Part shown: positions 1,295 to 12,200 of the stretch, one piece after another | Numbering within the stretch: position 1 is the first letter of the stretch | How the letters are laid out: the number at the start of each line of letters is the position of its first letter | Source: Rhodospirillaceae bacterium SYSU D60007 | GTDB lineage: Bacteria; Pseudomonadota; Alphaproteobacteria; Reyranellales; Reyranellaceae | Length of the DNA stretch: 64,000 nucleotides | NCBI GenBank assembly: GCA_003574685.1 | Contig: QOCQ01000014.1 | Coordinates: forward strand, 62,001 to 126,000 | Reading direction: 5' to 3' | Translations under genes and position numbers: made by a program | Notes under the pieces: model-generated | What the model was told of the DNA's origin: nothing | Database searches by the model: none | The model's input: the letters and a program-made list of their open reading frames with translations, nothing else

Positions 1295-3505
1295 TCAGCG
1301 GCGGGCGCTGCGGCGGGCGGGTTTACCGCGCGAGCCGGAGCCGGTCTTCACGCCGCGGAAGGTGCGCGAGTTCTGGACCTTGCCGTAGGGCGTTTGCGCA
1401 CTGTTGCCCGCAGCCCCGGCGGTCGAGCGCGGCCGGATACTGCCGGGCGGCAGGCCGAGATCGTTTTCCTCCAGCCGGCGGATCTCGTCGCGCAGGCGGG
1501 CCGCTTCCTCGAACTCGAGATTGGCGGCCGCTTCGCGCATGCGCTTCTCCAATGCCGTGATATGGGCCTGCAGGTTGTGGCCGATGAGCTGGATGTCGCC
1601 GGAGACACCGGTATCCACGGTGAAGTGGTCGCGCTCGGCGACCGACTGCAGCACCTCGTTGATGTTCTTGCGGATCGAGGCCGGCGTGATGCCGTTGGCG
1701 TCGTTGTAAGCCTGCTGCTTGGCACGGCGGCGCTCGGTTTCGCCGATGGCGTATTTCAGCGCATCGGTCATGCGGTCGGCATACAGGATCACGCGGCCGT
1801 CGACGTTGCGCGCCGCCCGTCCGATGGTTTGAACCAGCGAGGTGGGCGAGCGCAGGAAGCCTTCCTTGTCGGCGTCAAGGATGGCGACCAGCGCGCATTC
1901 CGGGATGTCGAGGCCCTCGCGCAGCAGGTTGATGCCGATCAGCACGTCGAAAGCGCCCAGCCTCAGGTCGCGGATGATCTCGATGCGCTCCAGCGTGTCG
2001 ATGTCGGAATGCAGGTAGCGGCAGCGTATGCCTGCCTCGTGCATGTATTCGGTGAGGTCTTCCGCCATGCGTTTGGTAAGCGTCGTGACCAGCACGCGCT
2101 CGCCGCGCTTCGCGCATTCGCGGCACTCGGCCAGCAGATCGTCGACCTGCTTCTCGACCGGCCGCACGATGCAGACCGGATCGATGAGGCCGGTGGGCCG
2201 GATCACCTGCTCGACGAAGACGCCGCCGGTGCGCTCCATCTCCCACGGCCCCGGTGTGGCCGACACGAACAGCGTGTGCGGCCGCATCGCGTTCCATTCT
2301 TCGAACTTCAGCGGCCGGTTGTCGATGCACGAGGGCAGGCGGAAGCCGTACTCCGCCAGCACGCTCTTGCGGTTGAAGTCGCCGCGGAACATGCCGCCGA
2401 TCTGCGGCACCGTCACATGGCTCTCATCGACGATCAGCAGCGAGCCCTCGGGGAAGTACTCGAACAGCGTCGGCGGCGGCTCGCCCGGCTTGCGGCCCGT
2501 CAGGTAGCGCGAGTAGTTCTCGATGCCGGCGCAGGAGCCGGTGGTTTCCAGCATCTCGAGATCGAACTGGGTGCGCTGCGCCAGCCGCTCGGCTTCCAGA
2601 AGCCGCCCGGCACGGGTGAACTCGTCAAGCCGTTTCGCCAGATCCTCGCGGATCTTCTGGATGGCTCCCGTCATGGTCGGGCGCGGCGTCACATAGTGGC
2701 TGTTGGCGTAGACCACGATGTCCTGCAGGCTGGTGGTCTTCTCGCCGGTCAGCGGATCAAACTCGGCGATGGCGTCGATCTCGTCGTCGAACATCGAGAT
2801 GCGCCAGGCGCGATCCTCGTAGTGCGCCGGGAAGACTTCGATCGAATCGCCGCGTACCCGGAACGCGCCGCGGGCAAAGGCCTGGTCGTTGCGCTTGTAC
2901 TGGATCTCGACCAGCCGCCGCAGCAGCTCGGCGCGGTTGATCCGGTCGCCCACCGTCAGGCGGAAAGTCATCGCCTGGTAGTTCTCCAGCGGGCCGATGC
3001 CGTAGATGCACGACACCGAGGCCACGATCACCACGTCGTTGCGCTCCATCAGCGCCCGCGTTGCGGCGTGCCGCAGCCGGTCGATCTGCTCGTTGATGGA
3101 GGAGTCCTTCTCGATATAGGTGTCGCTGCGCGGCACGTACGCTTCGGGCTGGTAGTAGTCGTAGTACGACACGAAGTATTCGACCGCATTGTCCGGGAAG
3201 AAGCCCTTCATCTCGCCGTAGAGCTGCGCCGCAAGCGTCTTGTTGGGCGCCAGCACCAGCGTCGGCCGATTCACTGCGGCGATCACGTTGGCCATGGTGA
3301 AGGTCTTGCCGGACCCGGTAACGCCCAGCAGCACCTGGTCGTGCTCGCCTTCGCCCAGGCCCTGGATGAGTTGGCGGATCGCTTCGGGCTGGTCGCCGGC
3401 CGGTTGGTAATCCGAAACAACCCTGAACGGCCGTCCCTCGCCCTCAATGGTCGGGCGCCGCTGCAGCCACGGCATGGAGAGGGGTGCGATATGGGTGTCT
3501 GGCAT
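1295..3505 (-). CDS. uvrB: UvrABC excinuclease subunit B
   Basis: UvrB is the damage-verifying helicase-like subunit of nucleotide excision repair. It is loaded by UvrA and recruits UvrC. Visible signatures are [17 protein letters not shown] at the N-terminus, Walker A GVTGSGKT near residues 61-68, the Tyr-rich beta-hairpin [12 protein letters not shown] that is inserted between DNA strands, the helicase motif [20 protein letters not shown], the motif [12 protein letters not shown], and a C-terminal UVR coiled coil ([20 protein letters not shown]) that contacts UvrC. The start chosen is the ATG at 3505 (MPDTHIAPL). An upstream in-frame ATG at 3547 would add 14 residues, and neither has a convincing ribosome site. 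The basic C-terminal tail ([10 protein letters not shown]) extends past the UVR domain. I saw no clear LexA-type GTTC-N7-GTTC box upstream. Confidence 0.97.
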
Positions 3506-3598
3506 CGCCGCTATATGGCGCCGCCAGCGCGGTCGCGCCAATCCCATTCAATCCACCGCATCGAAGAAGTATAAAGTGAGCGGTCGCCACAATTTTCA

Positions 3599-4141
3599 TT
3601 GACTCTGTGCTTGAAAAGTATAAAAGACGTACTTTATGGTTTGCATGTGGTCCGAAAGCGCAAAAGCGATCTGGGCGGGTTCATTCGCCTTCGGCTGGAG
3701 CCCGACGCGGCCGGTTCCGCGGCGCTGGAGGGACTCGCCGAAAGCTACGCTGCGCTGGCGCGATGGCTCGATAACACCATTCCCGCCGATCATTCAGCCG
3801 ATCACGTGGCGCTGCACCGGAACTTCTATGAGCGCGCGCGGCAGGCCGTGGGATTGCCGGCCCAGCTCACGACGCTGGCCTTGCGCGATTGGGCAACGCG
3901 GCGTCGCGGGTTGGTGGTCGAGGGCGTGCCGCTGGACGAGCGGCTGTACTCGGTCCGCGGCATTGCCAGCGTTTCCATCGCCACGCCCGAGGGCCGGATC
4001 AGCGTGCCCTTCGCCGTGGCCGGCTATGGGCGGGTGTGGCCGGGCGGCGCGCCGGCACGGCTGCTGCGCCAGGCGAGTGGCTGGGAGTTGAGCATCGAGT
4101 CTGATCGCGACATCGCCCGTCTGGGGCAGAAGGAGCAGACC
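3599..4141 (+). pseudogene. TnpB-like N-terminal (REC/WED) half, no RuvC domain, in frame with pspA
   Basis: An open frame from a TTG at 3599 (alternative GTG at 3647) runs without a stop straight into pspA. Its roughly 180 residues do not resemble PspA. They follow the N-terminal pattern of IS200/IS605-IS1341 TnpB proteins: a beta strand FIRLRLEPD, a helix ending NFYERARQAVGLPAQL followed by ALRDWATRRRG, then a WED-like barrel with PLDERLYSVRGIASVSIAT, GRISVPFAVAGYGR and WELSIESD. In TnpB the RuvC nuclease follows directly. Here the frame meets the pspA start instead, so no catalytic residues exist. It could be a transposon relic, a domesticated RNA- or DNA-binding domain, or an N-terminal extension of PspA. 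The strong ribosome site in front of the inner ATG argues for separate translation of pspA. The family assignment is by pattern only. Confidence 0.5.
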
Positions 4142-4804
4142 ATGGCTACCGAGACCGTTGTCACCCGTATTGGCCGCGTCATCGCCGGCATGACTCACGC
4201 CGCCATCAACGTGGCGGAAGACGTCAACCCGGAAGCGGTGATGGAACAGGCCATCCGCGAGATTGACGGTGCCGCTGACGAGGTGCGCGGCGAGCTGGGC
4301 AAGGCGATGGCCGAGAAGGCGCGGCTCGACCTGCGGCGCAAGGAGCTGGAACGCGAACGCGGCGAGCTCGACGAGAACGTCAGGGTCGCGGTCGGCAAGG
4401 GGCGCGACGATCTCGCCGAGGCCGGCATCGACCGTCAGCTGGATATCGAGGCACAGCTCGGCGTGCTGGCGCGGCTGGCGGCCGATGCCGACGAGAAGAT
4501 CGCGCAGCTCAATCAGACGCTGGATGCCGTGCGCGCCAGCCGACGCGAGGCCGAGACGCGGCTCGCTGATCTCAGGCGCACGCGGCAGACCGCACCGGAC
4601 GGCTCCGGTGCGGCGGCGGGCGACACGCGCGTGGCCAGGGCCACCGGCAAGGTCGAGCGCGCGCAGGCGGCGATCGAGCGGCTGACGGGCGTGCCGGCGG
4701 GCACACCGGCCAGCGACGGCAAGGCGCTCGACGAGCTCAACGATCTGGCGCGCAAGCATGCCGTGGCCGAGCGGTTGGCGCGCTTGAAAGCCGGGCAGGG
4801 CTGA
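4142..4804 (+). CDS. PspA/IM30 family membrane-stress protein
   Basis: This is a member of the PspA/IM30/Vipp1 (ESCRT-III-like) family, peripheral inner-membrane proteins that polymerise on stressed membranes and limit proton leak. The 220-residue chain starts MATETVVTRIGRVIAGMTHA, contains NPEAVMEQAIREIDGAADEV, and is almost entirely charged alpha-helical coiled coil, as expected for the family. The start is set by AAGGAG at 4130-4135, six bases before ATG 4142, although the frame is open upstream through a TnpB-like segment. The following genes encode an OB-fold membrane protein and a flotillin, the YqiJ/YqiK set that accompanies the YjfJ type of PspA in many proteobacteria. I infer that all three are cotranscribed and act together on membrane integrity. 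Confidence 0.88.
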   Translation: MATETVVTRIGRVIAGMTHAAINVAEDVNPEAVMEQAIREIDGAADEVRGELGKAMAEKARLDLRRKELERERGELDENVRVAVGKGRDDLAEAGIDRQLDIEAQLGVLARLAADADEKIAQLNQTLDAVRASRREAETRLADLRRTRQTAPDGSGAAAGDTRVARATGKVERAQAAIERLTGVPAGTPASDGKALDELNDLARKHAVAERLARLKAGQG

Positions 4805-4823: not shown

Positions 4824-5567
4824 ATGCTGGATTTCTTCACCCATCCGGACGTCGCACCCTTCTCGGTGGCGGCGCTGGTCCTGTTCGGCCTGCTGCTGAT
4901 CGAGATCGGCACCCTTCTGGCAGGCAAGCCGCTGTCGGCGCTGATCGATCATGCCGTAGGGCATGATGGCATGTCTGTCGACGCCGGCCATGGAGAACTC
5001 GGCACGGCGCTGGATCATGCCATTGACCACGGCCCGCACGGCGCCAAGCCAGACGGTCAGCACCAGGGCGCATTCGGTACGGCACTGGACTGGCTGAATG
5101 CCGGCCGCGTGCCGCTGCTGGTGCTGATCATCGCCCTGCTGGCCGCCTTCGCCGGGCTGGGCATGGTGTTGCAGACTGCCACCAGCGCCATCGGCTTCTA
5201 TGTGCCGGCACTGCTGGCGATGGTGCTGGTGATCGTGCCGGCGGTGGTGCTGACCCGGCATGTTTCGCGGGCCGTGGCCAGCGTGGTGCCGCGCGACGAG
5301 AGCTACGCGCAGACCGGTGCGGATTTCGTCGGCCTGGTGGGCGAAGTGACGGTCGGCCCCGCAAAGAAGGGGGTTGTCGCGCGCGCCCGCATCCGCGACC
5401 GCCACGGCAATCTGCACTGGCCGCGGGTCGAGCCGGCGGATTCGGAGCAGATCATCGCTGCGGGCAGTCCGGTGCTGGTGATCGAGGTGCGTACCGGCGG
5501 CGTGCTGGCCGTGACACCGGCCGATGCACGCCTGACGGAGGATGTTGTGGGGCGGCGTACGGGCTGA
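4824..5567 (+). CDS. YqiJ-like OB-fold inner-membrane protein (DUF1449-type)
   Basis: The 247-residue protein has a first membrane segment near residues 12-35 (FSVAALVLFGLLLIEIGTLL), a hydrophilic His/Asp-rich loop (HDGMSVDAGHGELGTALDHA), two more membrane segments near 94-116 and 120-145, and a C-terminal soluble beta domain (DFVGLVGEVTVGPAKKGVVA through VLVIEVRTGGVLAV). The last part has the NfeD/OB-fold pattern found in YqiJ proteins. These are encoded next to flotillins and are thought to partner them at the membrane. The gene lies 19 bp after pspA, and its end overlaps the earliest open reading of the flotillin frame. The family is well supported by pattern and neighbours. The molecular role is inferred. 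Confidence 0.85.
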   Translation: MLDFFTHPDVAPFSVAALVLFGLLLIEIGTLLAGKPLSALIDHAVGHDGMSVDAGHGELGTALDHAIDHGPHGAKPDGQHQGAFGTALDWLNAGRVPLLVLIIALLAAFAGLGMVLQTATSAIGFYVPALLAMVLVIVPAVVLTRHVSRAVASVVPRDESYAQTGADFVGLVGEVTVGPAKKGVVARARIRDRHGNLHWPRVEPADSEQIIAAGSPVLVIEVRTGGVLAVTPADARLTEDVVGRRTG

Positions 5568-5634: not shown

Positions 5635-7380
5635 ATGTTCGACGCGCTGCTGACGCTGGCGGTTCCGGCCGTTATCGGTCTCGCCGCCTTGCTGGCCATC
5701 GGCCTGGTGATCGCGCGGCTCTACGTCCGCGCCGAGAAGGACCGCGCCTATGTCCGCACCGGTCTGGGCGGGCAGAAGGTGGTGCTCGATGGCGGCTCCA
5801 TCGTCCTGCCGATCTTTCAGAGCATCGCCTGGGTCAACCTGCAAACCCTGCGTCTTGAGGTGAAGCGCGACAATGCCGACGCCATGATCACGCGCGACCG
5901 CATGCGCGCCGATATCGGGGTCGAGTTCTATGTGCGCGTGAAGCCTGACTCGCCGTCAATCGCGCTGGCAGCCCAGACTCTGGGCGACCGCACCAACGAG
6001 GCCGAGCAGTTGCGCGCGCTGGTCGAAGCCAAGTTCGTCGACGCCCTGCGCAGCGTCGCGGCCACCATGGCGCTGGCCGAGCTGCAGGAGCAGCGCGCCA
6101 CCTTCGTGCAGTCGGTGCAGACCGCTGTTGCCCGCGACCTTGAGCTGAACGGCCTGGAGCTGGAGAGCGCATCGCTCACCAAGCTCGACCAGACCGACAC
6201 CAAGTATTTCAACCCCAACAATGCCTTCGATGCCGAGGGCCTGACCGCGCTCACGCGCATCACCGAATCGCGCCGCCAGGAGCGCAACCTCACGGTGCGC
6301 AACACCGAAGTGGCTATTGCCCAGCAGGATCTCGAAGCGCGCCAGCGCACGCTGGACATCGAGCGGCAGAAGAAAGAAGCCGAGCTGACGCAGCAGCGCG
6401 ACATCGTCAACAAGAGCGCGGAAACCCGTGCCGCCGCCGCGCAGAAGGAAGCCGAAGCGCGCCAGGCCGAGGAGGAGGCGCGCATCATCGCCGAGCAGGC
6501 GATCGCGCAGCGCACCGCCACTGCCAAGCAGGCGCAGGAGACAACCCGCATCGAGGCCGATCTCGCCATCCGGCAGCGGCAAATCGACTCGGAGCGCACG
6601 GCCGAGACGCTGGCAATCGCCAAGAAGCGCGACGTCGAGATCGCCGACCAGGATCGCGCCATCGCCGTGGCCGACAAGAGCCGGGCCGAGAGCGAGGCGC
6701 GCGCCCGCGCCGAGGAAGCACGTGCGCTTGCGACGTCGGCCACCGAAAGTGTCGAGACCGCACGCCAGGTGGCGATCGCCGAGCGCGAGCGGCAGACGGC
6801 CGTCATCAGCGCCCGGCAGATGGCCGAGCAGGACGCGGCCAAGCTGACCATCGCCGCCCAGGCCGAGAAGCAGGCGGCGGAAGACAAGGCCGATGCCGTG
6901 CGCACCGAGGCACAGGCCGACGCCGACGCCGCCAAGATCAAGGCCGAGGCCCAGGCCAAGACCTACGAGGTCGAGGCCGACGGCCAGCGCAAGATCAACG
7001 AAGCGCGCAATGCGCTGTCGCAGGCCGTGATCGAGTTCGAAGTCAGCAAGGAGCGACTGCGCATCGTGCCGCTGGCGCTGGCCGAGGCGGTCAAGCCGCT
7101 GGAGAAGATCGGCGACGTGCGCATCATCGACATGGGCGGCGGCCTCCCGGGCGGAGCGGCCAACGGCGCGGGCGGTGGCGGCCAGTCCGATTCGCTGCTC
7201 AACGCGCTGCTGGCCTATCGCGCCAACGCGCCGGTGATCGACAAGCTGCTGGCCGAGGCGGGCTTCGCCGGTGGCGCCAATCCGCTGCAATCGCTGCTGG
7301 CCGCAACCGCCAAGGACGGCGTTTCGCCCACCGGCGCGCAGTGGACCGTAGCCGCCAAGCCCGCCGACAGGGACGACTGA
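5635..7380 (+). CDS. Flotillin family protein (YqiK-like)
   Basis: A 581-residue SPFH/Band 7 protein of the YqiK flotillin type, a scaffold of ordered membrane microdomains. It has one N-terminal membrane segment ([20 protein letters not shown]), then the SPFH core with [35 protein letters not shown] and [19 protein letters not shown], a long Ala/Glu/Arg-rich coiled coil from about residue 240 to 480, and a Gly-rich tail ([16 protein letters not shown]). The start at ATG 5635 is chosen because the hydrophobic anchor follows it directly and a GAGGGGG tract at 5621-5627 sits seven bases ahead. The frame is open upstream from 5542, but that part overlaps the preceding gene and looks non-coding. 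It is the third gene of the pspA operon. Confidence 0.93.
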
Positions 7381-11786: not shown

Positions 11787-12180
11787 GCGTCAGACGGCCG
11801 GGCGGCTGCGGCGGGCGGCGCAAGCCGGCCCGTCGAGGAAAGTCCGGGCTCCACGGAAACACGGTGCCGGCTAACGGCCGGCGGGGGCAACCCCAGGGAA
11901 AGTGCCACAGAAAGCAGACCGCCGAACGGGCTTTGGCCCGTGGCAAGGGTGAAAGGGTGCGGCAAGAGCGCACCGCGGGACCGGCAACGGGACCGGCACG
12001 GTAAACCCCACCGGGAGCAAGACCAAATAGGGATGGCGCGGGCCGGGAAACCGGTCCAGACGCGTTTCCGCGTTGCCGTCCGGGTCGGTCGCGCGAGGCG
12101 TCCGGCAACGGGCGTCCCAGAGGAATGGCCGCCGCCCGCGCAAGCGGTGCACAGAACCCGGCTTACAGGCCGTCTGACGC
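11787..12180 (+). ncRNA. rnpB: RNase P RNA, bacterial type A
   Basis: This is the catalytic RNA that matures tRNA 5' ends. The 5' strand of helix P1 (GCGTCAGACGGCC, 11787-11799) pairs exactly with its 3' strand at 12168-12180. The universally conserved core is present in order: GAGGAAAGTCCGGGCTCC soon after P1, CCACAGAAA, GTAAACCCCACC, AGACCAAATAGGG, and the 3' ACAGAACCCGGCTTACA. The length of about 394 nt and the added helices fit the A-type RNA of alphaproteobacteria. No intrinsic terminator is obvious, and the converging ABM gene ends 20 bp beyond P1. Confidence 0.96.
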
Positions 12181-12200
12181 TCTTCGAAGGTCGCAGAGGT

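Follow-up and report, generated by a model that had tools for sequence, protein, structure and literature searches.

A TnpB-derived N-terminal half fused in frame to PspA, with a candidate operator in its predicted promoter, at the head of an alphaproteobacterial pspA-yqiJ-flotillin operon

Results

One reading frame joins a TnpB-like segment to PspA

We analysed a 64,000-nt stretch of DNA from Rhodospirillaceae bacterium SYSU D60007 (contig QOCQ01000014.1, positions 62,001–126,000; hereafter the window), in which the first gene of a pspA-yqiJ-flotillin operon encodes an N-terminal segment related to the transposon-encoded nuclease TnpB. An open frame on the + strand extends from a TTG at 3599 to a stop codon at 4802–4804 (401 aa), with no internal stop before the PspA-family part, and contains two domains: ~165 unannotated residues, followed in frame by a 220-residue PspA/IM30 protein (4142–4804, +) with its own ATG at 4142. 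The fusion probably starts at a GTG (3647–3649, +) rather than at TTG 3599, as the ATG starts of homologues align there. With this start, the TnpB-derived half, which comprises the WED and REC parts without RuvC, is 165 aa long (3647–4141, +), and its core lies at ~3680–4108. A first-pass annotation made from the DNA letters had placed a RuvC-less TnpB half at 3599–4141; the end of that interval holds, while its beginning moves to the probable start at 3647.

The PspA half is matched by PF04012 (PspA_IM30; E 2.3e-11, residues 7–179). TIGR02977 also matched it, at a score so far below cut-off that this half is not a classical PspA, and the profile distinguishes the fusion's PspA domain from the classical PspA paralogue. 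In three genomes (G098, G322 and G394), an extra PspA-family gene with a weaker score accompanies the TnpB-PspA fusion, which is thus a paralogue there. Downstream lie operon gene 2, a YqiJ-type OB-fold membrane protein (4824–5567, +; Pfam YqiJ_N 5.6e-19, YqiJ_OB 7.7e-16), and gene 3, a flotillin (5635–7380, +; Pfam Flot 2e-33, Band_7), separated by short intergenic gaps of ~20 and ~70 nt. A UvrB gene lies upstream in divergent orientation. The pspA-yqiJ-flotillin operon is a known phage shock protein (PSP) neighbourhood (PMC11237479).

The N-terminal half is homologous to the WED and REC parts of TnpB

Routine annotation would overlook the TnpB half, since sequence searches of Pfam, NCBIfam, PHROGs and the PDB returned nothing significant for it, and public records label the whole fusion 'PspA/IM30 family protein' or 'hypothetical protein'. 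The 23-member family was aligned with hhalign to the N-terminal halves of 12 TnpBs, trimmed just ahead of the RuvC motif G-x-D-x-G. These TnpB sequences are real plasmid records, and most of those fetched carry the annotation RNA-guided endonuclease TnpB. The alignment covers 145 columns with a probability of 99.4% (E 1.6e-21), and the match runs to the cut. The score of 134.6 compares with a maximum of 16.7 among 100 column shuffles and with 11.2 for the reversed profile; each half of the family taken alone still reaches 99.0% against the TnpB N-halves, and the result was reproduced with alignments from an alignment tool. BLASTP against TnpB N-halves gives identities up to 34% (E 3e-15). Across the genome of the window, the TnpB-half profile has a single match, the fusion gene (E 2e-11), and in reverse the family profile picks up a genuine 375-aa TnpB from another class. 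Positions common to the half and TnpBs are Y61, R65, L70, D97, T113, G116 and R117.

Structure comparison agrees independently with the profiles. An AlphaFold model of the half, built using nine homologues from related genomes, has a predicted local distance difference test score (pLDDT) of 84, with strands and helices in the TnpB order. Its best structural match is ISDra2 TnpB without RuvC (8ex9; Z 10.4, 134 residues, 3.2 Å). The first 45 structures in the ranking are exclusively TnpB, Cas12, Fanzor or LaTranC; below them the score drops to Z 3.9, for an unrelated protein. An FCD match (0.017) was dropped, as FCD appears in one of nine members and the model matches TnpB. At a threshold of E 0.001, a PDB search with the TnpB N-half profile missed ISDra2, so the residues that contact the transposon-associated motif in TnpB (Y52, S56, K76, F77, Q80, T123 and N124; PMC11844463) are not reliably transferable to the half.

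From these profile and model comparisons, the ~165 residues ahead of pspA and the TnpB N-terminal half are almost certainly true homologues. An extension of the PspA family, or a barrel-plus-helices fold that came to look like TnpB by convergence, would be consistent with the insignificant single-sequence searches of Pfam, NCBIfam and the PDB and with a lowest Foldseek E-value for the model of only 0.009. We consider such an origin extremely improbable, given the end-to-end, reciprocal profile significance with shared positions and the confinement of the top 45 structures to the TnpB/Cas12 superfamily. Compared with TnpB (ISDra2, PDB 8EX9/8H1J), the half is collinear through the first strand, REC helices and WED barrel and keeps key positions, but it lacks RuvC (the D-E-D nuclease) and the C-terminal zinc ribbon, has lost positive charge and basic REC residues, is fused to PspA, and has no transposon or visible guide RNA. 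RuvC is absent from all 23 members, and in the window the frame runs directly into PspA. The RuvC-less half in frame ahead of pspA, as proposed in the first-pass annotation, is borne out by sequence profiles and predicted structure; the direct Pfam comparison it had suggested was not significant, whereas the profile-profile comparison was.

The half forms one clade and is under purifying selection

Among 101 relatives, 9 carry the TnpB half, as do 10 of the 199 genomes from the order of G418; in the class sample its carriers belong to scattered families. Named carriers include Reyranella, Vineibacter, Rhizobium leguminosarum, Agrobacterium fabrum, Shinella and Bosea. Viral contigs contained no homologue of the half. 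All members form a single clade separate from TnpBs (support 100/97) that spans several alphaproteobacterial families. The arrangement found upstream of pspA in the window recurs in related genomes: at 22 of 23 loci, the half and PspA form an in-frame fusion, and YqiJ and flotillin come next wherever the context was read. The operon order is constant across loci, while the outer flanks vary. The sole stand-alone half (L058 / L078, genome G444) has its own stop and is followed directly by YqiJ and flotillin, with no pspA; since L058 nests within the fused clade, pspA was lost there. The promoter of this locus carries the perfect palindrome AAAGCACCCGATCGGTGCTTT.

Among congeners, the ratio of nonsynonymous to synonymous substitution rates (dN/dS) of the TnpB half is ~0.08–0.18, and the half is under purifying selection, in keeping with the intact coding frame first noted ahead of pspA. 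Degraded copies are frequent among the abundant TnpB elements, and the half might on that ground be taken for a decaying remnant of a TnpB insertion that lies in frame by accident. We give this next to no weight: a single clade in several families, the low dN/dS, the frame and junction kept in 22 of 22 fusions within a conserved operon, and the lack of transposon remnants beside the loci all speak against it, and the 'fresh relic' considered in the first-pass annotation is ruled out. Our comparisons show that the operon captured a TnpB N-terminal half and has retained it fused to PspA.

A palindrome lies within the predicted core promoter

A predicted sigma-70-type promoter (3611–3640, +), with TTGAAA at 3611–3616, an 18-nt spacer and TATGGT at 3635–3640, is the sole promoter-like site in 3500–3760. 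Most relatives have an equivalent TTGAAA-17/18-TATnnT 6–7 nt ahead of the start codon; in the genus of the window, an alternative promoter reading, TTGACT-16-TAAAAG, overlaps. Inside the promoter is a 21-bp palindromic candidate operator, AAAGTA-taaaagacg-TACTTT (3615–3635, +). Nearly all members have a 21-bp AAAGnA-N9-TnCTTT in the core promoter, usually 11–12 nt from the start. Its arms covary between lineages, position 5 pairing as T/A, G/C or C/G; 95.8% of the palindrome cells are paired, a level matched by none of 500 shuffles, and shifted arms fall to 35–59%. Six of six held-out named loci, fetched later, carry exactly one palindrome at the expected place.

The version in the window occurs once in the whole genome, and the strict pattern once in the 64-kb window. 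A regulon search of eight genomes matched the strict palindrome in two, only at homologous promoters. In the sister operon, where a pspA orthologue stands without the TnpB half, the pattern is absent from all 14 loci. With a single, genome-unique site and covarying arms, the gene appears to have a dedicated candidate operator in its own promoter. As an explanation of the inverted repeat, we set aside an RNA hairpin of the 5' leader: if the predicted promoter is correct, transcription would begin at the start codon or immediately beside it, leaving the repeat untranscribed. The palindromes of L019, L062 and L064 include GCACCAAAATGGTGC, which resembles the NtrC consensus; it is not kept in other lineages and is probably a coincidence. 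L014 has no single palindrome but three half-sites (AAAGCACC/GGTGCTTT) that overlap one another, ~60 nt upstream of the start and around both the −10 box and the start codon.

Two starts predict two products

An internal Shine-Dalgarno sequence, AAGGAG (4130–4135, +), lies within the coding sequence of the TnpB half, 6 nt ahead of the pspA ATG. GGAG or GAGG just precedes the pspA ATG at all 22 fused junctions (our script scored 21 of 22, having mis-located the remaining one), against a background rate of 10.8% of codon positions. No Shine-Dalgarno sequence accompanies the N-terminal start in any of the 23 homologues, and in most members this start lies 6–7 nt past the predicted −10 box, which suggests a leaderless mRNA for the fusion. 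PspA is predicted to be produced alone as well, from the internal Shine-Dalgarno, so that a gene with two starts would make both the fusion and free PspA.

Another gene occupies the slot in sister operons

Where pspA orthologues lack the TnpB half, its slot is occupied by a separate gene of ~170 aa with a ribbon-helix-helix-like pattern at the N-terminus (11 alphaproteobacterial loci at which the upstream gene could be read, plus Vitreoscilla). The pattern and helices fit such a fold, with low-scoring matches to NikA-like, CB_ParB_C and DUF6290 families. Several of these loci have other palindromic repeats upstream of the slot gene, of a TGTATAC type unlike the palindrome of the TnpB-half loci, and the TnpB-half profile has no match in two whole genomes with the sister operon. 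The slot family (L097, L098, L108, L110–L117 and L148) is unrecognised by Pfam or NCBIfam. At L117 (G269), the pspA orthologue seems split into two frames of 99 and 181 aa, possibly through a frameshift or an assembly error.

Discussion

Our best explanation, to which we assign about even confidence, is that the fusion may be a guide-free, TnpB-derived autoregulator of its own operon. An operon-specific DNA-binding regulator is favoured because the operon has its own palindrome, a regulator-like gene can replace the half, and the half survives without PspA. An ancestral alphaproteobacterium acquired the WED barrel and REC helices of an IS200/IS605-group TnpB, without RuvC and zinc ribbon, and the captured half became the leading segment of the pspA-yqiJ-flotillin operon, in frame with PspA, and has been retained since. 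It may have displaced a ribbon-helix-helix-type regulator of the slot, or been displaced by one. The half would act as a DNA-reading domain without guide RNA: a symmetric assembly (two copies, perhaps assisted by PspA oligomerisation) would recognise AAAGnA-N9-TnCTTT and repress the promoter. The two products could divide the work, with the fusion as sensor and repressor and PspA alone as effector. When PspA is drawn to a stressed membrane, the fusion would be titrated off the operator, turning the operon on. Tentatively, and with confidence a little under even, we propose this specific form, in which the WED-REC half recognises, as a protein, a fixed palindromic operator, and the PspA fusion couples membrane stress to operon control.

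Several observations weigh against this proposal. The net charge of the half is near neutral (~−4 to +5), whereas most TnpB N-halves range from +3 to +19, and positions of the REC helix that are typically basic in TnpB carry other residues in the half (L for R at 77, D for K at 81). Locus L018 has no recognisable palindrome, three members deviate from the strict pattern, and another factor could occupy the palindrome. The slot gene is only ribbon-helix-helix-like, its identification is weak, and a fold search of the PDB with it gives no match. The domesticated regulator of the psp-flotillin operon raised in the first-pass annotation gains circumstantial support from the palindrome, the slot replacement and the persistence without PspA; DNA binding by the half is nonetheless something we infer, and much of the positive charge of TnpB N-halves is gone from it.

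The near-neutral charge and lost basic REC residues make a role in protein interaction the main rival. The half would then bind no nucleic acid and would serve as an interaction or oligomer-control domain for PspA, comparable to PspAA or CesT/Tir, while a separate, unlinked regulator reads the palindrome. The PspA fusion at 22 of 23 loci fits this, and other PspA partners take similar positions in other bacteria (PMC11237479). Yet L058 retains the half without PspA, beside YqiJ-flotillin and with a perfect palindrome; the palindrome is confined to loci with the TnpB half and absent from sister operons; a genome-unique site would be unusual for an unlinked regulator; and the gene that substitutes in the slot is ribbon-helix-helix-like. 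On balance, we regard a protein-interaction role as possible, at well below even confidence.

Cas12 descends from TnpB, and to our knowledge the known domesticated TnpB descendants keep both halves and a guide RNA. A widely retained descendant consisting of WED and REC only identifies this half as a module that is both separable and evolvable, and it would allow one to ask directly what the half binds without RNA. The half is also an unrecognised first component of the psp-YqiJ-flotillin membrane-stress operon in rhizobia, Agrobacterium, Bosea and Reyranellaceae, concealed by the public label 'PspA/IM30 family protein', and the two-start gene suggests a simple, testable sensing scheme. Described partners of PspA include CesT/Tir, PspAA and PspAB, among others (PMC11237479); two PSP surveys (PMC11237479, PMC9239133) contain no TnpB-derived domain among them. 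Our literature search, which covered open-licence papers, returned no relevant paper linking TnpB with PspA and no description of such a use of TnpB parts as an operon switch. In its proposed role, the half resembles PspF or ribbon-helix-helix psp regulators, and a ribbon-helix-helix-like gene fills the same slot in sister operons; those regulators differ in their unrelated sequence, their separate, unfused genes and their other operator-like repeats.

WED and REC contact the guide RNA in TnpB and Cas12, and the half might still be RNA-guided, steered to the promoter by a trans-encoded guide as a shortened TldR. TldRs are TnpB relatives turned RNA-guided repressors, in which the RuvC fold persists although its catalytic residues are mutated (PMC13418256). 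The fusion shares with them a domesticated TnpB relative linked to host genes and a likely role in transcriptional repression, but its RuvC is wholly missing and its likely target is a protein-type palindrome. We consider an RNA-guided mode quite unlikely. RuvC and the zinc ribbon, the remaining main guide contacts, are missing; the gaps of ~20 and ~70 nt are too short to hold a cis-encoded guide scaffold; and the covarying palindrome arms fit symmetric recognition by a protein better than guide pairing. The Rfam search of the region, which detected no RNA family besides RNase P and none near the operon, likewise makes a guide-RNA role unlikely, and nothing was found to support the suggestion in the first-pass annotation that guide binding had been kept. 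The RNase P RNA gene detected in this search is complete and of the bacterial class A type (11790–12181, +; 283 bits).
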